A DNA stretch of 64,000 nucleotides, taken from assembly GCA_017646665.1 (NCBI GenBank), contig JAGCMB010000033.1, positions 1 to 64,000 of the forward strand, read 5' to 3'. The notes beneath the pieces were generated by a model. It searched no databases. It saw nothing but the letters and a program-made list of their open reading frames with translations, and was not told where the DNA came from. The translations under genes and the position numbers were made by a program. Source of the stretch: Bacteroidaceae bacterium (lineage in GTDB: Bacteria; Bacteroidota; Bacteroidia; Bacteroidales; Bacteroidaceae). Below are positions 26,438-60,178 of the stretch, piece by piece (position 1 is the stretch's first letter; every line of letters starts with the position of its first letter).

Positions 26438-29400
26438 TTACTTCTTTATTTTGAATGAGCGCACTGCTACACCCTCCTTCATAATCACCACTACATATAC
26501 ACCAGGCTCAGCCGATGCAAGCGAAATCTCGCGGAGTTCACCTGCACGAACTTCAAAGGCATCGTTTGCAACCAACTTGCCATCGGCAGCAAATACAGCA
26601 ACCTCAAACAAGCCATCCTCGGCAAACAGCACATTGGCTGTACCCTCGAAAGGTTTCGGATAAACCATATAACCGGCCTCGGCATTTACATCCTCAATAG
26701 AGGTTACAACCATATAGTCGGTGATGGTCTTTGTTGCAGAGCCCCAAGAGTTGGTAGCAACAACTGTGATTGGAAACTTGCCGTCGCCGCTGTTGTATGT
26801 TGCACTTGCAGTTGTATCTGTCGAAGCGTTCACACGTGCGCCCTCAATCATCCACTTCGTAGACTCATAATTAACAGGATAACTACCTGTGAGCATTGGC
26901 ACACCTGGAGCTGTAATCAATTGGTTCTGCTTGTAGTCTGTAGTAAAGCCGTTCTCTTCCTTGCCGGTTGTCATATAACCGCCGGGAACAGCAGCTGCAT
27001 TCTGACCCTTATTGGGGAAGTAGATATTTCCCTCGCCATCGGTCATTGTCTCCTCGAATGTGAAGTAGCCCTCAAGGTTTGTTGGAGCGGTTGCATAACC
27101 TCTCATCGCACGCTTGACCTCATCGGCTGTGAGCGCCTTGCTCCATATCTGCACCTCATCTACCCAACCTGTCAAGCTTGCAAGGTTAGTCATTGAACCG
27201 CCCACATAGAACTTGGCACCACGCCAGTTCTTTGGACCTGCACCGCGTGATGTTCCGTTTGCAATCTCCTTACCGTTAAGATATAGTGTCAGATTTCGAC
27301 CCGACTTCACTGCACAAACGTGATACCATACACCCGGCATAAGGCTATATCCGTTAGAGAGAATATCGACATCATTATTATGCTCATAGTTGCCGGTTCC
27401 TGCAGGAGGAGCATCAGCACAGAGCGACAACTCGTTCTCGGCATTGTCGCGGCCGATATTGTTGTTCTTGGCATAGCCGGCAGGACGGATGGCAGTCCAC
27501 ATCTCACCCCATACATTCTCGGTCCAGGTATTGTTATAGTTACGGTTAACCTTTGTCATAAGCAAAGTACCCAAAGATGCGTGCTCAAACTTCTCTACCT
27601 TGAACCAAAGAGCAAATGATGTATTATTATATTCGTTCATCACTGCAGCATCAACCGTAAACTGGTATGGCTCGTACATATGCAATGATCTTGAAACGCT
27701 ACAAGGAGCACCGTCATACTCAGTACCTGTTGCTATATCGGCAGTAAAATTCACCTCCTGGTCGGGGCCGGAAACTTCGGTGACATCGGATGCGATATCA
27801 TTAATCTGTGGAAGACGACCGGTCTCCTCGGGAGTAACAAGGATAAGTGAACGGTTTGTAAGTACAGTTCCGCCGGTTTTCACCTTGACATCATAGCTGC
27901 CCACACTTGGCAACGATGTTGTAAAGGTAAGTACACCGCTTTCTGACTGAGCCACTCTCTGGTCTGTGAGCGCATCATAGATTGCGAATGTAGCTGTTGC
28001 GTGGTTAGGATCCTCGAAACCGATAGTAAACTCCTCGCCCGGCTTGATAATCGCCTTGTCGACAGTGAGGGTTTCAATCATTGTCAAAGGCTCCTGAATC
28101 TCCTGGCTCCACACAATGTCACTCATTGCACGGCCATCCTTACCCACGGCACGCACACCAATCTGCAACTTGTCAACTTTTGGAATCAAGGTTGCATCAA
28201 CAACGTATGCAGCCCAAGAAGTGGTTGTTGTAAGCAGAGTCTCCTGACCCTCCTGCTTTACATATATTTCATAGTACCAAGCACCAACCTCCTCGTTGTA
28301 TACAGGGCAGCCATCATACTCGGCAGGACGTGTAGCAGGTGTAGGCATTGACCACACAAGCTTTATGTCGGCACGGTTGTAGTAGCGTTTCATCACCTCA
28401 GCGTGAGTGATTGTAGGAGTCTGTGGCTGCTCATTGAAGCTTGCAGGAACGAAAGCGAACTCACCAAGAAGAACCTCGTATGCAGCGTTGGTATCCTTTA
28501 CCGAGAGACCAACACAACCAATTACATCACCGGCAGCAAGACCGACCTCGGAAGCCTTGATTACAACCTCGTTCCACTCACCGGCCTTGATATCACCTGC
28601 AACAGGGATATATACAAAGTTGTTCTCGCCATTCTCTTTCGCAACCATCAGTTCAAGATTAGTTGCAGCACTCTTTGGTTTGAATACAAGGCGGAACTCA
28701 TCGTCTGCAGCCTCAACATTCCACTTTGTTGCAAAGAGGCGAACATCAGAACGCTGTGTAGCGCCGTGAATTTTCAAGCAAGAACCTGCGAACCAAGCGT
28801 CGTCGTAGCAGAAGTCGAGGTTTACAGCATCGGCAGGCACTGTCTTGCCGTCACCATTGTCAACCCACCAACGCCAGGTCGGGAGCAAATCCTGCATACC
28901 ATAGTTGTACCACTTGTGATTCCAGGTTGTAACACCCTCCTTGTTGAAGAAACGGCCGTTACCCAAGTTGAAGCGTGTCACAAAAGGAAGTTCGTCAAGT
29001 GTAGAACGCTCTATGACAGCTGTTGCATAACCGTGCCAATCCTTGAGGGCACTATAAGATGAAGTCACATTGGCATCGGTCAACCCGGGCATATTGAGCA
29101 CATTGCGGTTACCGCCCGAGAAGAGCATCTCCTGCTTCTTCTGGTACTCGTTCTGCACAGCATAGTCGCTCTGACCACCCTCGGTTGAAGAGATGTAAAG
29201 AGCATTACGGTCGTGGGCACCCCAAACGACAACGCTCACAGGCTGACGCATCAAAGCAGTCCAACCCGCATTGCCGTTCTTTCCGTAGCCACGGCCCTGC
29301 ATATCAAAGCCGGCGTATACGTCAAATGTAGAACGGCCAAGATTCTTTGCAGTCTGGGCGCTCTCGGCCAAACCACCCTCGGTCCAGTTGTAGTTAAGGA

Positions 29401-30244
29401 AGTAGACATCTGTTACAGGCTGGTCGGTAGATGTATGGTGGAACCAGTTCTGGTTGTTGCTGTTCAGTTTACAGCCGTTGTCGCTCAAACTACCGTTATT
29501 GGTAACGAAGGCATACCAATCCACGTGGAAAGGATGGTTCAGTTCCTTGGCAATCTTGTGACACTCGGCAAGGAAAGGAATGAAGCGGTTGTACACCTGT
29601 AATCCCCAATAACCCTCGGGGTTGAAGCAGAGACCATCGATACCATAGTATTTGAGGAACTGGATGAGCTTACGAGAATACTTGTACTTGTCGCCGTATG
29701 AGTTGCTACCTGTTGCAGCCAAGTCATAGAGAGTCTTTCCCGGCTCACTGGTATTGTTCACCGCAGTACCCCAGTCAATGAAGTAGGTACAACCGGTCTT
29801 TACACCGTTCTTGTGCGCAACATCGTTGAACGCACCGGGCACACGCCAAAAACCGTTTGTCCAGTTCGAGTGGATGTCGACATACTGCCACATGTTGAAG
29901 TTGTCGCCATCGAAATTGTAACGTGGCAGAGCACCCCACTTCTTTGTCATCTCACCGGTGGGAGCCATCCAGCAGAAGTTCTTGTTGTTCTCGTCGTTGA
30001 GAGCATCGTTTGCCTGGTCGCCCGGACGGAAACGGTTTTTCAAGGGTACACGTGAAATCCAGAAATTCTCGTCGACGTAGCTTGCATCGCCGTTCCACGG
30101 TTTGCCAGGTTCCCATTTGCTAAGGGCAGTCACGATGTTGTCGGGTGTGCCATTATCCACGTACATAGCGTGTGTAGGCACACTCTGAGCCATTGCTCCT
30201 ATCGAAAAAAGCGCAACAGCTACGGATAGTAAATGTCTTTTCAT
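26438..30244 (-). CDS. Secreted multidomain endo-beta-N-acetylglucosaminidase (GH85)
   Basis: Protein of 1268 aa with a cleavable signal peptide (about 1-20, ending AMAQ). Residues about 45-420 form a GH85 barrel: the catalytic pair is in YYGIDGLCFNPEGYWG, with Asn208 orienting the acetamido group and Glu210 as acid/base. GH85 enzymes cut the chitobiose core of N-glycans. Beta-sandwich modules follow (about 450-800), then a LamG/concanavalin-like domain (about 850-1090), an Ig/PKD-like segment and a short C-terminal sorting tail ending RSFKIKK, used by Bacteroidetes for export to the surface. It stands alone, with no SusC/D partner. A TATATTCG -7 box lies at 30287-30294 (minus). Confidence 0.9.
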   Translation of the reverse strand: MKRHLLSVAVALFSIGAMAQSVPTHAMYVDNGTPDNIVTALSKWEPGKPWNGDASYVDENFWISRVPLKNRFRPGDQANDALNDENNKNFCWMAPTGEMTKKWGALPRYNFDGDNFNMWQYVDIHSNWTNGFWRVPGAFNDVAHKNGVKTGCTYFIDWGTAVNNTSEPGKTLYDLAATGSNSYGDKYKYSRKLIQFLKYYGIDGLCFNPEGYWGLQVYNRFIPFLAECHKIAKELNHPFHVDWYAFVTNNGSLSDNGCKLNSNNQNWFHHTSTDQPVTDVYFLNYNWTEGGLAESAQTAKNLGRSTFDVYAGFDMQGRGYGKNGNAGWTALMRQPVSVVVWGAHDRNALYISSTEGGQSDYAVQNEYQKKQEMLFSGGNRNVLNMPGLTDANVTSSYSALKDWHGYATAVIERSTLDELPFVTRFNLGNGRFFNKEGVTTWNHKWYNYGMQDLLPTWRWWVDNGDGKTVPADAVNLDFCYDDAWFAGSCLKIHGATQRSDVRLFATKWNVEAADDEFRLVFKPKSAATNLELMVAKENGENNFVYIPVAGDIKAGEWNEVVIKASEVGLAAGDVIGCVGLSVKDTNAAYEVLLGEFAFVPASFNEQPQTPTITHAEVMKRYYNRADIKLVWSMPTPATRPAEYDGCPVYNEEVGAWYYEIYVKQEGQETLLTTTTSWAAYVVDATLIPKVDKLQIGVRAVGKDGRAMSDIVWSQEIQEPLTMIETLTVDKAIIKPGEEFTIGFEDPNHATATFAIYDALTDQRVAQSESGVLTFTTSLPSVGSYDVKVKTGGTVLTNRSLILVTPEETGRLPQINDIASDVTEVSGPDQEVNFTADIATGTEYDGAPCSVSRSLHMYEPYQFTVDAAVMNEYNNTSFALWFKVEKFEHASLGTLLMTKVNRNYNNTWTENVWGEMWTAIRPAGYAKNNNIGRDNAENELSLCADAPPAGTGNYEHNNDVDILSNGYSLMPGVWYHVCAVKSGRNLTLYLNGKEIANGTSRGAGPKNWRGAKFYVGGSMTNLASLTGWVDEVQIWSKALTADEVKRAMRGYATAPTNLEGYFTFEETMTDGEGNIYFPNKGQNAAAVPGGYMTTGKEENGFTTDYKQNQLITAPGVPMLTGSYPVNYESTKWMIEGARVNASTDTTASATYNSGDGKFPITVVATNSWGSATKTITDYMVVTSIEDVNAEAGYMVYPKPFEGTANVLFAEDGLFEVAVFAADGKLVANDAFEVRAGELREISLASAEPGVYVVVIMKEGVAVRSFKIKK

Positions 30245-47998: not shown

Positions 47999-50230
47999 AT
48001 GAAAAAAAGAACATTGCGCTGCTGTATGACAATGGCAGCACTACCCTCTTTTCTTTTAGCACAAGAGGCCGTGAGTGACAGTCTGCAAACCAATTTGCAG
48101 GAGGTGGAGATAACCGCGACACGTGCGACAGAGCAGACGCCCATCGCGCACACAAACATCAGCAAGGAGCAGTTATCGAAGATGAACACAGGCATTGACT
48201 TCCCCTATCTTGTTGCAACAACACCAAGCGTGGTAACAACAAGTGATGCCGGAACAGGAATTGGATACACCAGCCTACGTATACGTGGAACAGATGGCAC
48301 ACGCATCAACGTAACAGCAAACGGAATACCCATAAACGATGCCGAGAGCCACAATGTCTTTTGGGTGAATATGCCCGACATTGCCTCGTCGGTAAAAGAC
48401 ATCCAAATTCAGCGCGGTGCAGGAACATCAACCAACGGCGCGGGCTCTTTTGGTGCAAGCATAAACCTAAAAACAGATAAGTTCAATACACATCCGTATG
48501 CAAATTTAAGTGGCTCATACGGTTCGTTCAACACCTACAAAGCAACCATAGGGGCAGGCACCGGCATACTGCACGACCATTGGGCTTTAGATATGCGCCT
48601 CTCAAGCATCGGCAGCGACGGATATATCGAGCGTGCGTCCACCAAACTACAATCATTCTATCTGCAAGGAGCATACTACGGTGAGAACACAAGCATACGG
48701 TTAATTGCATTTGGTGGCACAGAGCAGACATATCACGCGTGGAACTATGCAAGCAAAGAGGAGATGGAGCTATACGGCCGCCGTTACAACAGTTGCGGAT
48801 ATATGTTTACCGACAGTACCGGCACTGCACATTACTACGACGGACAGACAGACAACTACACACAGTTGAACACCCAACTGCTCATAGACCATAGTTTTAC
48901 CGAGGAGTTAAAACTAAACATTGGCCTGCATTACACCAAGGGCGACGGCTACTACCAAGAATACAAGAGCAACCGCAAATTTAAGGAATACGCTCTGCCA
49001 ACATATTTCGCAGACAACAAAGAGATAAAAAAAAGTGACCTTATACGTAAAAAGGCTATGGACAACCATTTTGGCGGTGCCGTTTTTGCTGTTACATACA
49101 AGAACGACAAGGTGACAGCTATTGCCGGAGGTGGAGCAAACAGATATTACGGCGACCACTTTGGGCAGGTGCTATGGGTAAAGAATTACATCGGTGACCT
49201 ATTGCCTGACCACGAATATTACCGAAACAACGGAACAAAGGACGATATCAACATATATCTGCGAAGCGACTATCGCCCGATAGATTGCGTAAATATTTAC
49301 GCCGACCTGCAATACCGTCACATAGGCTACCGCATAAATGGAGATAATGACAAATGGAACGACGCGACAGACAGCAACCAACAGCTCGCCATAAAAGAGT
49401 ATTTCAACTTTTTCAATCCCAAAGCGGGTGTTTCGTGGTTGCTGAACAGCAACAACAGACTCTATGCATCTGTGGGTATGGCACATAAAGAACCCACACG
49501 CAACAACTACACCGACGGCAAGCTACACGAGCAACCCACTGCAGAGCGTCTGATTGACTACGAATTAGGCTATACTTTCAACAGCAAGCGTTTCTATGCC
49601 GGAGCAAACATCTACTTTATGGACTACAAAGACCAACTGGTACTTACCGGAGAACTGAACGAAATTGGCGAGCCCCTTGCAGCCAACATCCCCGACAGCT
49701 ACCGTGCAGGCATTGAGCTCACCGCCGGAGTAAAATTAGCCTGTGGCTTTGGATGGAACGCAAACGCCACATTCAGCCACAATAGGATAAAGAATTTCAC
49801 CGAAGTACTATACGATGACAACACATACGAAAAATGGGAGATACACCACAGCGATACGCCCCTTGCTTTCTCGCCCGCCATTATTGCAAACAACTCCTTT
49901 TCATACGAGTGGAGAGGTCTTGAGGCTGAATTGCAATCGCAATATGTGAGCAAACAGTATATGAGCAATTATGGTATTGAATCGCACACACTCGACGCCT
50001 ATTTCGTCACCAATCTGCGCCTTGCATACTCATTCAAATTCAAGGGAGTGAAAAAAATTACCGTTGGGGCTACCATATATAACCTTTTCAATGAAGAGTA
50101 TGAGAACAACGGATATGCCGGCAGCGGTTACTACACCGACAGCGAGGGCAACCGCCACCGCTATGACTATGCCGGATACGCCGCGCAGGCAGGTATTAAT
50201 GCAATAGGACACGTGACAGTAGAACTTTAA
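47999..50230 (+). CDS. TonB-dependent outer-membrane receptor, thiamine-linked
   Basis: Protein of 743 aa. After a signal peptide (about 1-22) comes a TonB-box/plug region (LQEVEITATR; SLRIRGTDGTRINVTANGIPIND; QRGAGTSTNGAGSFGASINL) and a 22-strand barrel to the C-terminus (GINAIGHVTVEL). It has no SusC-type N-terminal carboxypeptidase-like domain. Control by the TPP riboswitch and the following PnuT and pyrophosphokinase genes indicate thiamine or a precursor as substrate, energised by TonB. Functional assignment is by context. Confidence 0.88.
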   Translation: MKKRTLRCCMTMAALPSFLLAQEAVSDSLQTNLQEVEITATRATEQTPIAHTNISKEQLSKMNTGIDFPYLVATTPSVVTTSDAGTGIGYTSLRIRGTDGTRINVTANGIPINDAESHNVFWVNMPDIASSVKDIQIQRGAGTSTNGAGSFGASINLKTDKFNTHPYANLSGSYGSFNTYKATIGAGTGILHDHWALDMRLSSIGSDGYIERASTKLQSFYLQGAYYGENTSIRLIAFGGTEQTYHAWNYASKEEMELYGRRYNSCGYMFTDSTGTAHYYDGQTDNYTQLNTQLLIDHSFTEELKLNIGLHYTKGDGYYQEYKSNRKFKEYALPTYFADNKEIKKSDLIRKKAMDNHFGGAVFAVTYKNDKVTAIAGGGANRYYGDHFGQVLWVKNYIGDLLPDHEYYRNNGTKDDINIYLRSDYRPIDCVNIYADLQYRHIGYRINGDNDKWNDATDSNQQLAIKEYFNFFNPKAGVSWLLNSNNRLYASVGMAHKEPTRNNYTDGKLHEQPTAERLIDYELGYTFNSKRFYAGANIYFMDYKDQLVLTGELNEIGEPLAANIPDSYRAGIELTAGVKLACGFGWNANATFSHNRIKNFTEVLYDDNTYEKWEIHHSDTPLAFSPAIIANNSFSYEWRGLEAELQSQYVSKQYMSNYGIESHTLDAYFVTNLRLAYSFKFKGVKKITVGATIYNLFNEEYENNGYAGSGYYTDSEGNRHRYDYAGYAAQAGINAIGHVTVEL

Positions 50231-51496: not shown

Positions 51497-54400
51497 TTAT
51501 TTAACCAACATCTTCACTCCGTTTACAATATAAAATCCGGCATTATTAATCTCGTTTACACGGCGACCTGCAAGGTCGAAAATCCCCAGGTTCTCGGTTT
51601 CAGGTTCTATCACACCCTCAATTCCAGTTTCCACATCAATAACATCTATGCGAAAAAGATTACTGTAACTGGAGCTGTAGCCTTCGGAGCCCGTCCAAGC
51701 ATCAAAGGCACCTGATGTCAAAATAATGATTGAGCCATCTGAATTATTCGCTCTTTTAGAAACAATGTAATATCTGTCGGCAACAGAACCTTGATTGATA
51801 TTCCAATCGCAATATGTCGCATTGTACGCAGCCAATGTTCCGCTGTTGTTATTATAGCCATAGTTGCCTCCGGCACGCCAAATCATATACAATTGTTTCT
51901 TTTCATTAAAAAAACTGTATTTCCCACTGGCCTCCTTTTTGCAAAGAAACTGAGCCGAAGCACCTATTTCCTCGGCTGTCGAACTGCTGACATCAAGGAC
52001 ATTGCTGTCATTGATAAAAAGCACGCGCTCTGCACCCGACTGCTGAACATTGGTAAAAGTGAGAGTTTTGCCGTCCCACTTATCGGCAGGCTTAAAAGCC
52101 GCAAAAACCGCATAGACAGCATCGAGTTCTACCGGTGTCGGGGTTTTGCTCAAATCGGCAAGTGCTGTTGCAAGAAGAGCCCTGTCATCGTCCGACATAT
52201 TGATTTCATCTGCCATCGCATTGAAATACTCACGCACAAAAGCACGCTGGTCAACATCGCGCTTCACGCTATACGCACCACCGGTAATATATTCCAAATC
52301 GTATGCCACGTAGATATTGTCAAAACCGTCGAAGTTATGCTGTCCTGCGCCTGTGGGAAAACTGGTTGACACAGGATTATCGCGTCTACCAAAACCTGTC
52401 AAAGTTTCTTCATAGATAAAACCTATCTTATCATCGGCCTGCAAATCCATAGAACTGTATGCCGAGGAGGTGTTGCTTACCTGAAAGAAGCCGTTCCAAT
52501 CATTTGCAAAATTTGCTACGGTATTCAGGTCGGTCAGGTCGGTCAATTCCTTATAGAAGATACCTACATTGGTGCGGCCGCCGCCAGTAGGCAATGACTG
52601 CAGGGCAAGATACATCTCCTTGCCGTCGCTGTTGCGCTGCACAGGAACAACAAGAATCTCGCCGTTGGTTGAATTGCCACCGGGAGTGAGACCAGAACCT
52701 GCAAAAGTACTCTTTACATCGGTGCTCCAAGTGCCCTCGCCTGTGAGAGTGTTGCTATATGTATAAATATTGTATATGCGGCCACCACCTACACGGCTCG
52801 AGAGAATTACACGACCATCGGGCATCTCCTCGCACTTTGGCTCGTCGCCACCGGGGGCTGGGAGTGCATTGGCACCGCCAAGAGCGTGCCAAGTCTTACC
52901 GAAGTCATCGGAGTAGATGACGCGGTTACCATTGGGGCGTGCACACATAGCTGCATACAAACGGTAATATTTATCCTTCTTCACTATACGGCTCTGGAAC
53001 ACCTTGCCACCACCGACAAATGCCGACTGTATTGGATTACCGGCATCGAAAAGGCTGTAAATATCCTCGGTTACATTGATTGGCTCTTCCCAACTCTCGC
53101 CATTATCCTTGCTGAGGATTGTGGCAATCATATTAGGATTCTGTCGTGTTGTATTGCCGTTACCATAAACTGTACAGCCGGCAACAGCAATAATCAGTAC
53201 CTCGTCACTTGTGCGGTCGGCAACAATAGCAGGGTCACCAAAAGCAGTATCAAAATAGTTTACAGTGGCCGATGTGCGACCTGTACCAACTGCCACATCA
53301 ATCATGTCACTCCAAGTCTTGCCATGATCATCACTGACACGGCAAACGACATCCACCTGCCCGTAACCGGGGTCTGTACCGCAGACAAGACGCGCTGCAG
53401 CTGTTATCAAACGGCCATTGCTTGCTGTTGTGATACCGGGAATACGATATGGGGGAATAACGCCGTCGCCTTTACTGGTATTGTAGAGGTCCTGCTTGAC
53501 AGGAGTAGCAAGAGCCTGCACGTTTGTAACCTTGATAGTATTGCCCTCGACATTCACATCGGCACCCTTCAGCACGTTGCCAACAATGCCTACCGACAAA
53601 TCGGCAGCATTGATACTTGATGCGGTGATGAAGAAACCGCCATTGAAGGCTTTCTCACCCGTAGCGCTGTTGATGACATATACGTCGGCATTATCCTCGA
53701 CAACAACATCATATATGTTCATATTCTCGATGTTCACCGATTCTACACGCCACAGATTGTCATCAGCGGTAGCAGGACCCGATGCCCAAGTAGTGAGATG
53801 CTCGATACCGCCTACCATATAACTGGAATTATTGTTGGAACAGTTTAATGCAGCATCGAAGTAGTAGTAGCTGACGCCACCATATTCGTATGTATTGGCA
53901 ATACCAAGTTGGCTATATGAACCCAACAAAGTAGCATTTGCGCCACCTGCGACAATGGGATTTCCGTCACCGTTCTTGATGCCTATCTTACCACCGCCAA
54001 GTGAAGTGATGTGCCAAATACCATTGTTGGTGGTTACTTTTGTGTCCGACTGCAGGGTGAAACGATTACCGTTACCGGTGTGGGTTGCATCGTTGTAAAG
54101 GTGCTCCTTGCGTGCAGTAGCCTTGCTGATAAGATGATAATATCCGGTTGCAATAGTAGCAGGCTCGGGCACCTCAACCTCAAGACCGTTAAGGAACGCC
54201 TCAAGGTCATCAACTAAAGTGGCACAATCTTCGCCTGCAACAGAACCTATAAAGCGGCCCAACAGAGTGTTGAGTTTATAGAGTTTGTCGGGATTATCGC
54301 TATACTCCTCAAGAAGTATCTGGATTTTCTCATACTGGTGGATACCCTCGATAAGACGCTCAAAGCGTACACTTGAACGGTTGCCGGGATAGTAACAGTA

Positions 54401-56503
54401 TGTATCGCCCGAACCGAACTTGCGGTAGCGGCTATCGGTCAATGGGTCCTCGTCCCAATTCATCCAAGACCAGTGCAGATAACCATCGAGATTCATCTTT
54501 GCTGCATAGATTGGCAGATAGGCAGCCTCGGCTGGATATGAGTTTGTATAGATATTAGGCTCGCTGTTCGCACAACTGGTGTAGAATGTAGTTATGCGGT
54601 TCTTTGACTTGCGGTCGGCAAGCTGAGCCGCGGTGATATAGTGCTCCTGACCGAGCTGAACGCACTTGTCGTGGAGGATATCGCAGAGCGAACTGTGATA
54701 GTTGCCCGCAAGAGCCATCTTGAAGCCAAGGGCATTTGCAATTTCGTATGCTTTGAGCATTGCTGCCTCACCGCGCTCATCGACCGCGATGACTGTCTTC
54801 TCGAACCAGCCCTTCTGTTGCAAGTGAGCCTTGAAGGCTGTGAGGAAGTTTGTCCACAGTTCACGATACTCTGTTGATGAGTATGTTGTGGTGAGGTTCT
54901 TATAGCTGTTTGAAGCCTCGTCGAAATAACGGAAGCTCATATCCCACGGCAACATACTGAAACAGTTTATTTGCTTGTTGATGCCATACTCGGCACACAA
55001 TTCAACATATTTATCGAAGACAGTATAGTCATACTCCCAAGTGCCGTTACTCTTCTTTGTCGTCTGCACCATCGGGTCAAAGAGGTCGTGTGTCTGCTCG
55101 CCCCAAGGTTCATAGAAGAGAATTGCGCTCACTACACGCTGACCGGCACGGCCAAGGGCTGCAAGATATGGGCGCAGAGCCTCAAGGTGCTCGTCGCTCC
55201 AGCGCTCTACCTGATAGTAACGGCTAACGGCGTATGGCTGCTGCCAAAAGTCGAGGTGGAATTTCTGCTCGGCAACAGTGGGCAAAGAGTGAGAGTTTAC
55301 GTTAATTGTAAGTGCAAGGCTCTTTACTACATAGCCGTCTGCATCGACAACCTCAAGGGCCGTTGTGTATTCGCCAGCCTCAATGTCGCGTGGCACTTCG
55401 ACGGTACACCACACGGGGCGTGTCTCCATCGCAGGAACAGCGTGTGGCTTGTCCTGGTCAATTACATCAGCAACAAGCCAAGTAGGCATTGTCATAGAGT
55501 TGTTTCCACAAGAGGTGAAATCGTCAGTGATGACATAATTCACAAAACGTGCCTCGGCACTGTTGATGCCAGTCGCCTTGCCGCCCTTCTGCCATTCTGT
55601 CATACGCACTGAAAGCGTATCCTGGTTGCTCTTGCTATATAGGACTGCCTGAATGTTGGCACGTTCGCCCTTCCAAGCATGGATTGTAGCAGCGTCTTTC
55701 TGCGTCACCTGTGGAACTTCGTGCAGTTTGTAGTGCACGTCGCGCGAAGCCCAGGTTGCATTAAGGCCATTTGGCAATGCATTCCACGCAGCCTCATCGG
55801 GCATTGTGCCCACGCGTGGCTCGGCATAAGTGTCTATTGGATATTTATCCTCGGTAACCTCATCGGCTTTTCCGTTGATTCTGAGTGTTACATCAATGAT
55901 TGAACCGCCATCGCTGATGAAGTTTGCATAATTTCCCGATGGGTCAATGCAATTCCACATTATCGCGTAGCGCATACGGTATATTGAACCGTCTTCAAGT
56001 CCTTCGGGAACACGGAACGAACCCGGTGCGAGAACATTGCCGCTGCTCTGATATATGCTTGCACTGTTCCAGCCTGTATCGCCATTGCCAGTCTTGCTGT
56101 AGAGCGACCAGCACATGAGTTCGTTGCCCTCGCCCTTGGTAAATGGACCATCGCCCTCAAGGTTGACCTCGAACTGCTTGCTGTTGTCCCAATCGACAAA
56201 TACATAGCCATGCATCCACGCACCGTTGATTGCAATGAGAGGAGTGACAGTCTCGCCGCTCTTTACATCAAAGACAGTGGATGTCTTGTCGAAATATGCT
56301 GCACAGCCGGGAGCCGAAGCTATGTTGCTGAGCTGCTGTTGTGGACTTTGTGTACCCATGATACCCACAGTCTTTGGATAATGGGCTACGTGAGTCACAT
56401 TCACATCGGCACCGTATTTGACATAATAGTCGCTTTGCGCCTGCGCACCAGCACAGAAGAGCACTGCGGTAAATGCCGAAAGAAGAATTAATTTAAGTTT
56501 CAT
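51497..56503 (-). CDS. Secreted GH123-GH33 fusion: beta-N-acetylgalactosaminidase plus sialidase
   Basis: Protein of 1668 aa, signal peptide 1-22 (GAQAQ). Residues 25-210: GEVED-like module. About 225-770: DUF4091/GH123 domain, with the adjacent acid pair Asp575-Glu576 in TVIAVDERGE, as in GH123 beta-GalNAcases that use substrate-assisted catalysis. About 785-925: beta-trefoil-like module (YYHLISKA). About 1003-1375: GH33 sialidase with PYRIPGI (Arg1020), Asp boxes SDDHGKTW (1057), SKDNGESW (1131) and SDDFGKTW (1198), DEPKCEEMPDGR with the Glu, and later Arg and Tyr. About 1440-1620: another trefoil-like module. The sorting tail ends GFYIVNGVKMLVK. The pairing suits sialylated GalNAc-bearing glycans. 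Confidence 0.88.
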   Translation of the reverse strand: MKLKLILLSAFTAVLFCAGAQAQSDYYVKYGADVNVTHVAHYPKTVGIMGTQSPQQQLSNIASAPGCAAYFDKTSTVFDVKSGETVTPLIAINGAWMHGYVFVDWDNSKQFEVNLEGDGPFTKGEGNELMCWSLYSKTGNGDTGWNSASIYQSSGNVLAPGSFRVPEGLEDGSIYRMRYAIMWNCIDPSGNYANFISDGGSIIDVTLRINGKADEVTEDKYPIDTYAEPRVGTMPDEAAWNALPNGLNATWASRDVHYKLHEVPQVTQKDAATIHAWKGERANIQAVLYSKSNQDTLSVRMTEWQKGGKATGINSAEARFVNYVITDDFTSCGNNSMTMPTWLVADVIDQDKPHAVPAMETRPVWCTVEVPRDIEAGEYTTALEVVDADGYVVKSLALTINVNSHSLPTVAEQKFHLDFWQQPYAVSRYYQVERWSDEHLEALRPYLAALGRAGQRVVSAILFYEPWGEQTHDLFDPMVQTTKKSNGTWEYDYTVFDKYVELCAEYGINKQINCFSMLPWDMSFRYFDEASNSYKNLTTTYSSTEYRELWTNFLTAFKAHLQQKGWFEKTVIAVDERGEAAMLKAYEIANALGFKMALAGNYHSSLCDILHDKCVQLGQEHYITAAQLADRKSKNRITTFYTSCANSEPNIYTNSYPAEAAYLPIYAAKMNLDGYLHWSWMNWDEDPLTDSRYRKFGSGDTYCYYPGNRSSVRFERLIEGIHQYEKIQILLEEYSDNPDKLYKLNTLLGRFIGSVAGEDCATLVDDLEAFLNGLEVEVPEPATIATGYYHLISKATARKEHLYNDATHTGNGNRFTLQSDTKVTTNNGIWHITSLGGGKIGIKNGDGNPIVAGGANATLLGSYSQLGIANTYEYGGVSYYYFDAALNCSNNNSSYMVGGIEHLTTWASGPATADDNLWRVESVNIENMNIYDVVVEDNADVYVINSATGEKAFNGGFFITASSINAADLSVGIVGNVLKGADVNVEGNTIKVTNVQALATPVKQDLYNTSKGDGVIPPYRIPGITTASNGRLITAAARLVCGTDPGYGQVDVVCRVSDDHGKTWSDMIDVAVGTGRTSATVNYFDTAFGDPAIVADRTSDEVLIIAVAGCTVYGNGNTTRQNPNMIATILSKDNGESWEEPINVTEDIYSLFDAGNPIQSAFVGGGKVFQSRIVKKDKYYRLYAAMCARPNGNRVIYSDDFGKTWHALGGANALPAPGGDEPKCEEMPDGRVILSSRVGGGRIYNIYTYSNTLTGEGTWSTDVKSTFAGSGLTPGGNSTNGEILVVPVQRNSDGKEMYLALQSLPTGGGRTNVGIFYKELTDLTDLNTVANFANDWNGFFQVSNTSSAYSSMDLQADDKIGFIYEETLTGFGRRDNPVSTSFPTGAGQHNFDGFDNIYVAYDLEYITGGAYSVKRDVDQRAFVREYFNAMADEINMSDDDRALLATALADLSKTPTPVELDAVYAVFAAFKPADKWDGKTLTFTNVQQSGAERVLFINDSNVLDVSSSTAEEIGASAQFLCKKEASGKYSFFNEKKQLYMIWRAGGNYGYNNNSGTLAAYNATYCDWNINQGSVADRYYIVSKRANNSDGSIIILTSGAFDAWTGSEGYSSSYSNLFRIDVIDVETGIEGVIEPETENLGIFDLAGRRVNEINNAGFYIVNGVKMLVK

Positions 56504-56651: not shown

Positions 56652-58301
56652 TCAAACATAAAAAGCAGTACTGTTACTTTCGAGCGTCACCGGCTCCTTG
56701 CCTACCGGATGGATGAATGAAATGCGCGATGCGTGAAGCATTAGCCTTTCGCCAGGCGTTCCATAAAGAGCATCGCCTACAATGGGACAGTCAAGACCAC
56801 CACTATGCGCTGCGTGGACACGCAACTGATGGGTGCGACCGGTAACAGGTTCAAAACATACAACAGCACACCTGCGACCATTGTACAAAAGCGTATCGAC
56901 GACCTTGTAACGCGTCACAGCCGATTTACCGGCGGTATAATCGACCTTTTGTCGGGGGCGGTTTTCATAATCGGCAGCAAGTGGCAGTTCAATGACACCT
57001 TCGTTGCGTTGCGGTATGCCGTCAAGCATTGCAATATACTGTTTTTCGACCTTGCGCTCTGCAAAAAGCCGCTGCATCTCTTTATATACCTCCATTGATT
57101 TTGCAGCCACAAGCAACCCAGATGTTGCCATATCAAGACGATGTACCACAAAGAGTTCATTACTATGCAGATACTCGTCGCGCAGCCATTGTTGCACGGA
57201 CATTCCGCCCATTATCCCAGGCACGGAAAGCACGCCCGATGGCTTGTCGACAACAATAATATGTTCATCCTCAAAAACTATGTCTATATTACCGATATCA
57301 CCCCCTCTTTCTAGTGCGTTCTCCTCAACATCAAGCCCTTGAAGCATAAAGCCAAGAATGGGCTCACACTTGCTCTTGCACGCGCCATAGTAACAACCGT
57401 CACGGCGCACCTCGCCCTGTGGCGATGCCCCAACCCAGAATTCGGCTATGGCAACCGGAGCAAAAGAGTTCATATAGGCATACTGCAACAGTTTCGGAGC
57501 GGCACACTCTCCTGCTCCACCCGGAGGAACAATTCCTGAATATTCCGAAAAAATGGCAAGCAAGCTCTTCTCCTGCCCATTGGCATTAAGCACTTTGAAT
57601 TGTTCAAAAAGCCAGCGTTGCAGTGCTGCTGAACGCTGCTTGCGCTCCTCTTTCATTGCCACAACGGAGTTTTTCAATGGAACAACAACCGCCTCACATT
57701 CAGCAATCCGATGTTGCCATTTTGCCGTAGCACGCTTCAATTCGGCCTTCTGGAACTGGCTTTCCCTTACAAGAGCAGCCTCAACATCGGGTGTCAGGCC
57801 GCCAACAGCACGCATAGCATCACGTTTTTGCTTACTGTTGTGCATATCATCACGCATCGCCGTGAGTTGTGACGCCATTTCACGTTTCAAATCCTCGACA
57901 GCGGCAATGGCTTTAACATATTCATCGGAACATTCAGCCTCCTTTATTTTACGGTTCAAGGCCGAAATACCGTTCTCTTCACGTTTGAAGTATCCATCGG
58001 GAGATTGCAAATCGAATATAGGCGGCACAAAGCCATCGACATTGTTGCGACCTGCAAGCAGCCCCGAAAAAGCCGAAAGATAACCTATTGTACCATCGCC
58101 ATCGCGCACAATAAGAACACCGAACATTTTACCCTGTGCCGCATCATCGGCCAACGGCTTTTCGCGAGACAGCATATCGCGTACTTCATCTGCCGCCATA
58201 GTGCAAAGGGTGTGGGGCGAATAGTAAAAAGGGTTGTTGAAGCGCTGTGGCACTTCAACAACCGATATATCTGATTTGAAACGGTGGAGCAATGTCATCA
58301 A
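56652..58301 (-). CDS. RluA-family pseudouridine synthase with long N-terminal region
   Basis: Protein of 549 aa, about twice a basic RluA. The C-terminal ~220 residues are the synthase: DIVFEDEHIIVVDKPSGVLSVPG, the catalytic HRLDMATSGLLVAAK (Asp), and GRTHQLRVHAAH. The first ~330 residues include a predicted coiled coil (about 110-215, rich in Glu/Lys/Gln) and Cys-containing YYGACKSKCEP; no known domain is recognised there, though long-form RluA proteins are familiar in Bacteroidales. It modifies uridines in rRNA or tRNA. Its start overlaps the GH110 stop by four bases, an unrelated function. Confidence 0.88.
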   Translation of the reverse strand: MMTLLHRFKSDISVVEVPQRFNNPFYYSPHTLCTMAADEVRDMLSREKPLADDAAQGKMFGVLIVRDGDGTIGYLSAFSGLLAGRNNVDGFVPPIFDLQSPDGYFKREENGISALNRKIKEAECSDEYVKAIAAVEDLKREMASQLTAMRDDMHNSKQKRDAMRAVGGLTPDVEAALVRESQFQKAELKRATAKWQHRIAECEAVVVPLKNSVVAMKEERKQRSAALQRWLFEQFKVLNANGQEKSLLAIFSEYSGIVPPGGAGECAAPKLLQYAYMNSFAPVAIAEFWVGASPQGEVRRDGCYYGACKSKCEPILGFMLQGLDVEENALERGGDIGNIDIVFEDEHIIVVDKPSGVLSVPGIMGGMSVQQWLRDEYLHSNELFVVHRLDMATSGLLVAAKSMEVYKEMQRLFAERKVEKQYIAMLDGIPQRNEGVIELPLAADYENRPRQKVDYTAGKSAVTRYKVVDTLLYNGRRCAVVCFEPVTGRTHQLRVHAAHSGGLDCPIVGDALYGTPGERLMLHASRISFIHPVGKEPVTLESNSTAFYV

Positions 58302-60178
58302 TAACGGTACATTACATCCTTCTGTTCATCAAAGCCATTGCTGAACTCATTGTCCTCAATGGTCACGTTTGTCACCTTTTCGAGCAAGAAACGGTGTTTA
58401 TTCCAGTGGAACGGCGCAAAGTCATTGTTCTGCACCACCTTGTTGCCACGGAAGACAAGGCCGTCGAGCGATTTTGCATAGACAATAGGAGCGTCGAAAG
58501 TTTCAAAAACATTATTCTCTATTACAACACCCTTGCCGTCACCACCGTGGAAATATTTTGTTTGCGATGCAAGGTCGGGTATTTCAGGGTAGATAGAAAT
58601 TATACCGTTTGTAAACTGGAACATACTTGTGAGAGCATTGACAAAGCGGTTGTTGCGAATAACCACATCGCGGCATGCACCTGTCTCGAACCAACCGTTA
58701 CAGTCGCCACAAAGCAGGATTGCGGTGCCGGACGTGTGGTCAAAGAGATTATTCTCTACGAGTGTCTTCTTAGGTGTGCTGAACAATGCACCACGAGCAC
58801 GATTGTTGCGTATTGTATTGCCGGCAAAATAGACCTCGGGAGTCCATTCAAGGTTCTCAATGCCATATAATCCATTGGCAATGTCGACAGGTAGCGGCTT
58901 CTTAAAACGGATTATAAACTCCTTAGTGCCGTCGAGTTGGAAATTCAATTCAAAATCGGGAGACATACAACCATCAGCTATTTCCTTGTTATAAGGTTTA
59001 ATTTCCTCAACCTCATTACCACCAACAACCTCCATTGTAGATGACTGTACGAACTGCACGCTGTCGCCCGCGCCACCCCAGTAGAAGCCATAGGCTTGAC
59101 CATGCATGTAGCGGCCAACCAAAGTATTGTCATCAATGCGCTCGACAACACGCAGATAGGTGCCGTGAACATTGATGGCATCGTCCATCATACCCTCATA
59201 AAAGCCATTCACTGAGGTTATCTTTCCCTTGCAACCCGAGAAATGTGTGGCATCGGCCTGTGTGGTAAAATATCGGTCACTACCTTCTTCCAGTTTCACA
59301 TTAAAGCCATCGAGCGTAATGTTCTCACAAACTTGCGCAAGCAGACCCATACCCTCGGCATAATATACATCACAGTTCTTCAACAGCGTGTTCTTATTCT
59401 GTGAAAGGAAGATTCCGGGTGTAGGACGGGCGTATGAGCGCATTGCAATGACACTGCCGGGCACAAGACGCACATCGTTCCATGGAGCACGGATTACACG
59501 CGGCGCAATCTCCTCGACACCCGATGTGCCGACACCGATGTCGCTCGTGGTGTATATAATGTGTTTTGTATCACCTTCAAAGGCAATACCCCAACAGGGA
59601 ACAAACTCCCAGTTGCTGCCATAGACCACAAGACGGCCGTTGTCGATACGGTAGTTCACGTATGGTGCAATGCGGTATGTTATATAGCCGCCGGCATTCT
59701 CAAGCACCTCGACCTGGGTAATCTGTGGCACACGGGTATCGACAGCTATTCCTTTCAGCGTACAATTTTCGCAGTCGACCATAGCCACCGGCAACATACG
59801 ACCATTCATCATAAAGTTAGCATATTCGCTACCGCTATGCGTGGGACGGCTTTTGAGGGTGAAATTTTTCATACCCTCAAGCGCAATTGCCACACGCTTG
59901 GGGTTGTCCTGGTCGTGGTTGCTTACATAATATTCACGCACAAGAGCACTGTCGGGATAAAAATCGTATTCACCGCTGTCAATCAACAGTTCGGCAGGAA
60001 TTTCGCCTTTACATTCAGCCTTAATGGTCTCAAAAGCCAATGCGAACTCCTGTGTCATATCCTCTCCGGTACCGGGTACAATACCGAAATCAGAACCATA
60101 ATAGCATTTCGTGCCGTTTCCACAAGAAAACAAAGTGAACATCAATGCCATTCCAAATAAGATGCGTGCCTTTTTCAT
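58298..60178 (-). CDS. GH110 alpha-1,3-galactosidase lipoprotein
   Basis: Protein of 626 aa. The signal peptide ends in the lipobox LFSC (Cys19), so it is lipid-anchored, unlike the sorting-tail enzymes elsewhere in the window. The body is a right-handed beta-helix with repeated N-x-F/V-x-x-N turns and the signature EGMMDDAINVHGTYLRV. GH110 enzymes (GlaA/GlaB) remove terminal alpha-1,3-galactose, such as blood group B and linear B structures. Length matches known GlaB proteins. Upstream lies a TATCTTCG -7 box. It is overlapped by the RluA gene downstream. Confidence 0.88.
   Translation of the reverse strand: MKKARILFGMALMFTLFSCGNGTKCYYGSDFGIVPGTGEDMTQEFALAFETIKAECKGEIPAELLIDSGEYDFYPDSALVREYYVSNHDQDNPKRVAIALEGMKNFTLKSRPTHSGSEYANFMMNGRMLPVAMVDCENCTLKGIAVDTRVPQITQVEVLENAGGYITYRIAPYVNYRIDNGRLVVYGSNWEFVPCWGIAFEGDTKHIIYTTSDIGVGTSGVEEIAPRVIRAPWNDVRLVPGSVIAMRSYARPTPGIFLSQNKNTLLKNCDVYYAEGMGLLAQVCENITLDGFNVKLEEGSDRYFTTQADATHFSGCKGKITSVNGFYEGMMDDAINVHGTYLRVVERIDDNTLVGRYMHGQAYGFYWGGAGDSVQFVQSSTMEVVGGNEVEEIKPYNKEIADGCMSPDFELNFQLDGTKEFIIRFKKPLPVDIANGLYGIENLEWTPEVYFAGNTIRNNRARGALFSTPKKTLVENNLFDHTSGTAILLCGDCNGWFETGACRDVVIRNNRFVNALTSMFQFTNGIISIYPEIPDLASQTKYFHGGDGKGVVIENNVFETFDAPIVYAKSLDGLVFRGNKVVQNNDFAPFHWNKHRFLLEKVTNVTIEDNEFSNGFDEQKDVMYRY

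Follow-up and report, generated by a model that had tools for sequence, protein, structure and literature searches.

A GH123–GH33 fusion protein of a Bacteroidaceae genus, a likely bifunctional exo-glycosidase for Sda/GM2-type glycans

The closest described counterpart of the protein analysed here is SiaBb3 of Bifidobacterium bifidum JCM 1254, a single secreted polypeptide of 1753 aa in which a GH123 domain (residues 281–757) precedes a GH33-type domain (1229–1607), the same order as in the present protein (J Biol Chem, December 2025; PMC12856340). As reported there, SiaBb3 acts on GM2 and on the Sda glycans of mucin, releasing Neu5Ac first and GalNAc second: in the presence of detergent the wild type converts GM2 to lactosylceramide, a GH123-dead mutant converts GM2 to GA2, and a GH33-dead mutant releases neither sugar from germ-free mouse mucin (PMC12856340). 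A second counterpart, Allo_01388 of Allobaculum mucolyticum (1765 aa), is listed with GH123, GH33, and a signal peptide, as here, by an in silico annotation of 2021 (PMC8409761, Table 1). Its species belongs to another phylum than the genome analysed here. Both the GH123–GH33 architecture and its action on Sda have been published, for SiaBb3 by experiment and for Allo_01388 by annotation, and the protein described below is a further member of a known enzyme type and does not define a new one. Searches of the open-access literature found no Bacteroidota GH123–GH33 member, and a Bacteroidota clade is what this analysis adds to the known enzymes.

The window, 64,000 nucleotides of contig JAGCMB010000033.1 from a Bacteroidaceae bacterium (GCA_017646665.1), encodes a GH123–GH33 bifunctional candidate of 1668 aa at 51497–56503 on the minus strand, in one uninterrupted frame of 1668 codons plus stop; the strand call was made in this analysis, the preliminary description of the locus having given none. 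That description proposed a single polypeptide joining the two enzymes, and both domains are indeed matched within the one frame (Pfam, NCBIfam, PDB); its residue numbers and motif counts (VDER at 574–577, YRIP at 1019–1022, three Asp boxes) are also correct. A chance match is excluded by the domain E-values and by full-length relatives at 69–89% identity in same-genus genomes. The N-terminus, judged by eye, resembles a signal peptide (residues 1–22; 56438–56503, this and all following features of the protein being on the minus strand), with a possible cut between AQA and Q, and leads into an N-terminal accessory region (residues 22–220; 55844–56440) with a weak GEVED-like match at 100–193 that lies under the cut-off.

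The DUF4091 half was assigned to GH123 in the preliminary description, and the Pfam domain search agrees: GH123_cat (PF13320) matches residues 420–730 (54314–55246) with an E-value of 1e-96 and 324.6 bits, far over the cut-off of 23.1, and Glyco_hydro_123_N_2 matches residues 251–386 (55346–55753; E 2.1e-35). In the PDB sequence search, chain 5l7r matches residues 238–740 (E 2e-128). The VDER motif, with the proposed catalytic pair Asp575–Glu576 (54776–54781), aligns with MDER, the DER motif of the solved GH123 chains 5l7r and 5fqe, which we take to be BvGH123 and CpNga123, respectively; the Asp and the Glu are each kept in 49/49 aligned rows (P0001 and L087 included). The likeness to these two enzymes consists in the GH123 module with its DER motif; unlike the window protein, the matched chains have no sialidase domain. 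Structural work on GH123 gives the Asp and Glu roles in the reverse of the wording used for SiaBb3. In the SiaBb3 paper, the Asp is the proton donor and the Glu the stabiliser of the intermediate (PMC12856340).

The sialidase half (GH33-type region, residues 1001–1475; 52079–53503) has a PDB-matched core at 997–1371, where chain 10qf (“exo-alpha-sialidase”) aligns with an E-value of 1.1e-67. A sialidase profile of 12 relatives matches 10qf (E 1.9e-80), 8feb (4e-23), and 1eur (4e-17). In Pfam, BNR at 1196–1207 is over its cut-off (30.5 vs. 27), whereas BNR_2 at 1042–1253 is under its own (28.9 vs. 31.4), which indicates a divergent sialidase half. NeuramTDE0471 (NCBIfam) matches residues 984–1372 with an E-value of 2.3e-80 but reaches only 270.8 bits vs. 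an equivalog cut-off of 900; thus, the sialidase half is a relative of NeuramTDE0471 rather than that equivalog. It aligns over the core with both the NeuramTDE0471 neuraminidases and 10qf, although it stays below the equivalog cut-off of the former, and the matched chain of the latter has no GH123 domain.

All the motifs named in the preliminary description (RIP motif, three Asp boxes, catalytic Glu) were found, together with the presumed Arg triad, Asp, and Tyr/Glu pair of GH33. YRIP with Arg1020 lies at 53438–53449, and the Asp boxes are SDDHGKTW (1057–1064; 53312–53335), SKDNGESW (1131–1138; 53090–53113), and SDDFGKTW (1198–1205; 52889–52912). Arg1020, Glu1221, Arg1237, and Tyr1349 meet the Arg, Glu, Arg, and Tyr of solved chains in five alignments. 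Glu1226 was considered as the catalytic Glu and dropped; because it has no Glu counterpart in the 8feb alignment, Glu1221 (52841–52843), which aligns with a Glu in 10qf and 8feb, is taken for the catalytic residue. From the spacing in known sialidases, Asp1044 (53372–53374) is presumably the acid/base, Tyr1349 (52457–52459, in an AYS motif) presumably the nucleophile, and Glu1221 presumably its partner. R1020, D1044, E1221, and R1237 are kept in 49/49 rows (P0001 and L087 included); Y1349 is found in 47/49 and E1365 in 46/49, the remaining rows being cut by contig ends, and R1310 in 47/49, with one row contig-cut and one carrying Leu (L087).

By its published positions, SiaBb3 shares the D–E catalytic pair and three complete Asp boxes with the window protein (PMC12856340). 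The distance from Glu to Tyr is 128 residues in both (E1430–Y1558 in SiaBb3, E1221–Y1349 here), a likeness of spacing only, and a second Tyr follows after 16 residues in SiaBb3 (Y1558–Y1574) and 15 here; the distance from the upstream Tyr to the Glu is 189 in SiaBb3 (Y1241–E1430, the identity of Y1241 being presumptive) vs. 202 (Y1019–E1221). The halves of the two proteins may be only analogous. A pattern combining the SiaBb3 reverse primer with its sortase motif had no match in the bacterial contig collection, and its forward-primer 18-mer matched five stretches in viral contigs, none of which has a tblastn match to either domain.

Between the two catalytic regions lies a spacer module (“LINK,” residues 784–1000; 53504–54154) without a Pfam family. 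Among 46 fused relatives (from the best 80 of 242), LINK was detected in 35 and undetected in 11, and the spacer ranges from 7 to 230 aa; it is 225 aa in the window protein vs. 472 aa in SiaBb3, by the printed domain limits of the latter. A range of 7–230 aa favors tethering and co-secretion over rigid channelling, and, given this range within one clade, a rigid-channel model was set aside; the two halves are probably independent catalysts joined by a variable spacer. Downstream of the sialidase are a C-terminal accessory region (residues 1490–1622; 51638–52036) and a tail (1625–1668; 51500–51631) that resembles 16 other places in the genome and is a possible type IX sorting signal. No sorting-tail family matched the protein at E-values up to 0.1 (Pfam, NCBIfam); the GH85 protein of the window has a Por_Secre_tail match slightly under the cut-off (26.1 vs. 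27). The genome encodes the type IX secretion protein SprA: in a profile search for the SprA_N component alone, it scored 654 bits, with matches in 0/14 controls. From these features, we infer that the protein is secreted, possibly via a type IX system; SiaBb3 has a Gram-positive sortase anchor instead of such a tail.

The preliminary description suggested a search for the same architecture in other proteins, and fused ORFs were found in the same genus as well as in other genera. Both catalytic domains are encoded in one ORF in 24/44 same-genus genomes (the window's own included, some cut by contig ends); additionally, G005, G033, and G037 have pieces at contig ends, G011 has two overlapping ORFs, G040 has a form without GH33, and 15/44 have no match counted as an orthologue. 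In samples of the family (349 genomes) and order (393 genomes), searched at E ≤ 1e-130 with at most two candidates scored per genome, further fused orthologues come from genera g30 (G170, G222), g11 (G286, G336), and g16 (G290), as well as from a different family (f29, genus g58; G506, G739). In a phylum sample of 395 genomes (E ≤ 1e-30, at most two candidates scored per genome), 14 had a match, 13 of these being GH123 alone, and the fusion was seen in the window's own genome only. A scan of a contig collection, in which the best 80 of 242 relatives gave 68 loci and more distant members were possibly missed, yielded 46 loci with both domains in one ORF. According to record titles, 31 of these 46 are from ruminant cecum, colon, or rectum (raw counts, unweighted for sampling effort per site, and including two loci from one MAG), two are from rumen, and 13 have another site or none; among the 13 are one from horse feces and two with horse-derived names. 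The Sda-degrading enzyme type recently characterised in SiaBb3 is thereby extended to Bacteroidota and to bacteria of the ruminant and horse gut.

Trees were built by a quick method with SH-aLRT support only (GH123, 98 rows; GH33, 82 rows). In the GH123 tree, 48/49 fused rows fall within one group of 57 rows, and in the GH33 tree 47/48 fall within one group of 65, each with a support of 100. L087 is the row left out in both, a 1326-aa open frame from the same GTDB family as the window genome; it has the same two enzymes in the same order but lies outside the fused clade, and its canonical GH33 half exceeds the cut-offs of BNR_2 and BNR_3 and is only 27% identical, whereas that of the window protein is below the BNR_2 cut-off. 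From this placement and the canonical GH33, L087 is apparently a second GH123–GH33 fusion.

GH33 and GH123 genes are same-strand neighbors at L071 and L106. In both trees the L071 pair sits next to the fused group but outside it (joining forks of 86 and 95, the latter including L078), which fits a partnership that predates the fusion, although the gene order is reversed. An origin by simple read-through was unsupported, as the GH33 gene comes first at L071 and L106 while GH123 is N-terminal in the fusions. Among 19 non-fused loci inspected within L071–L090, both genes are present at L071 alone; no partner gene was found near the other 18, several contigs being short. L107 has GH123 without a partner gene, L176 has the two genes side by side on opposite strands, and G131 and G224, of the same genus as the L106 genome, have similar GH123 genes.

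Pairing is not obligatory, since L137, L142, and L143 have the N-terminal region, GH123, the spacer, and a sorting-like tail without GH33. These, and stand-alone GH33 genes nested inside the fused group (e.g., L168, L171, L177), point to later separation or exchange. The two trees require 11 and 13 changes between the fused and solo labels, of which starred branches force 9 and 10; several of the rows scored as solo are fusions truncated at a contig end or broken by a frameshift, and others represent genuine losses or distinct genes. L154 carries the label Alistipes yet is close to the clade of the window protein, a possible binning error. Pairwise identities of the two halves are correlated (Spearman 0.865 over 48 rows, L087 having been excluded beforehand; 0/999 permutations as high). 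At L146, the nearest relatives differ between the two halves, a possible sign that halves are occasionally swapped. Such natural variants, with or without the spacer, N- or C-terminal modules, or GH33, could show whether joining aids catalysis or only delivery.

Purifying selection on GH123 and GH33 exceeds that on the spacer in four of the five comparisons made and hardly differs among the three parts in the fifth. In three comparisons with P0001, dN/dS is 0.032–0.064 for GH123, 0.033–0.054 for GH33, and 0.117–0.176 for the spacer; L122/L138 agrees (0.009, 0.025, and 0.139), and L124/L141 shows hardly any difference (0.036, 0.057, and 0.064). In most of these comparisons dS is high. It is extremely improbable that either half serves for binding without catalysis or that the fusion is an assembly artefact: multi-domain proteins can retain dead domains and the relatives are draft MAGs, but catalytic positions are kept in the aligned rows, the same join recurs in 24/44 same-genus genomes, and both halves are under purifying selection.

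The domains, the conserved catalytic positions, the joint inheritance of the halves, and the purifying selection on both are directly supported by these data. For function, we favor as the likely reading a bifunctional exo-glycosidase, secreted or anchored at the surface, of a Bacteroidaceae-like gut genus, with substrate and order taken by analogy from SiaBb3. The GH33 half would take α2,3-linked Neu5Ac or Neu5Gc off GalNAcβ1-4(Siaα2-3)Gal termini, as in Sda on colonic mucin and in gangliosides (GM2); the GH123 half would then cleave the exposed β1,4-GalNAc by substrate-assisted hydrolysis via Asp575–Glu576; and the variable spacer would keep the tethered halves together, so that both steps could occur at the same place, sialic acid first. 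This type of substrate exists in the ruminant gut: both NeuAc- and NeuGc-bearing Sda gangliosides have been assigned in the intestine of moose and fallow deer, and bovine small intestine is reported to contain GM2 (PMC4515253). Elsewhere, the two GH33 sialidases of Akkermansia act on Sda (PMC11790493), and GM2 was hydrolysed by a metagenomic clone carrying genes of GH33, GH20, and GH2 (PMC7531118). In the reverse order, GH123 would act with sialic acid still present and the sialidase second, as in mammalian lysosomes. This order has a parallel in the Akkermansia GH20 enzyme Amuc_1924, which is able to remove GalNAc while the Sda epitope is still intact (PMC11790493). However, this was the one enzyme of five GA2-active Akkermansia β-HexNAcases that accepted Sda (PMC11790493), and the GH123 of SiaBb3 and NgaP are active on GA2 and inactive on GM2 (PMC12856340), which makes a GalNAc-first route very unlikely.

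Another reading has a general sialidase joined to a GH123 for some other β-GalNAc glycan (GA2, Gb4), the halves serving different glycans and the fusion merely saving a secretion signal. In keeping with it, the SiaBb3 sialidase also cleaves non-Sda glycans and turns over 6′-sialyllactose ~20-fold faster than 3′-sialyllactose (PMC12856340), GA2 and Gb4 are substrates of other GH123 enzymes (PMC12856340, PMC7531118), a gut GH123 was active on aGM2 and tGb4 (PMC7531118), sialidases of the same genome are joined to unrelated partner domains, and spacer length is unconstrained. Nevertheless, GH123 and GH33 were joined apparently twice in the Bacteroidota sample and are reported together in two other genera, and Sda/GM2-type termini bear both sugars on one galactose; we consider the different-glycans reading rather unlikely. 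A shared task of the two halves is supported by the apparent second fusion together with the two same-strand gene pairs, but the lack of a partner gene near 18 of the 19 non-fused loci inspected within L071–L090 speaks against it. The Sda/GM2 substrate proposed in the preliminary description is thus, by the SiaBb3 precedent, the best-supported reading, although its wording of a tool dedicated to this epitope is perhaps too restrictive for the sialidase half in view of the breadth and 6′-sialyllactose preference of SiaBb3; that half might act on sialylated glycans of any kind.

More tentatively, the joining of GH123 to GH33 may have arisen several times over in separate events, two or more of them in Bacteroidota and others in Bifidobacterium and in Allobaculum mucolyticum, a member of the Bacillota, with GH123 always first. 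The fusion might then be a genomic signature of Sda-mucin feeders, including those of the ruminant hindgut, in a genus with several sialidase combinations (with GH123, GH20, and C10 peptidase, and with GDSL esterase in relatives), each perhaps matched to one sialylated structure. The fusion could serve as a sequence marker for users of Sda-capped mucin.

The gene is flanked by a pseudouridine synthase gene (56652–58301), beyond which is a GLAA-B (GH110-type) protein (58298–60178, minus strand); a GH85 endo-hexosaminidase with a LamG domain (26438–30244, minus strand) lies further away, and the GH85 and GLAA-B proteins are further host-glycan enzymes within the window. On the other side, the ORF list, inspected by eye, has two small plus-strand ORFs and a TonB-receptor-like protein (47999–50230), beside which no SusD-like gene was recognised. 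Elsewhere in the same genome, L009 (contig C13, 2683–7656, minus strand) is a 1657-aa ORF with GH20 β-hexosaminidase domains, the catalytic match at 151–256 covering positions 1–112 of a 348-position profile, and a sialidase related to that of the window; GH20–sialidase relatives of L009 comprise 1886 aa at same-genus L110 (8864–14521) and 2168 aa at L129 (1222–7725), the latter adjoining a GH123–GH33 gene. L010 (contig C9, 600–10022, minus strand) is a 3140-aa ORF with a C10 (streptopain-type) cysteine peptidase, a Spi-type inhibitor domain, a sialidase region, repeat domains, and the spacer module found in the window protein. A GDSL-type esterase and a sialidase region share one ORF adjoining a GH123–GH33 gene at L128 (1081–8187) and L153 (9450–14324); in B. 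bifidum, the sialidase SiaBb1 is likewise described as carrying an esterase domain (PMC7232152). At L195 (1432–4578, minus strand), in a same-family genome, NAGLU α-N-acetylglucosaminidase domains and GH123 share one ORF. At L106 (1824–6733), genes for a glucosamine-6-phosphate isomerase-like protein, a sialidase, and GH123 are consecutive on one strand, and the isomerase-like product could feed amino sugars freed by the sialidase and GH123 into metabolism.
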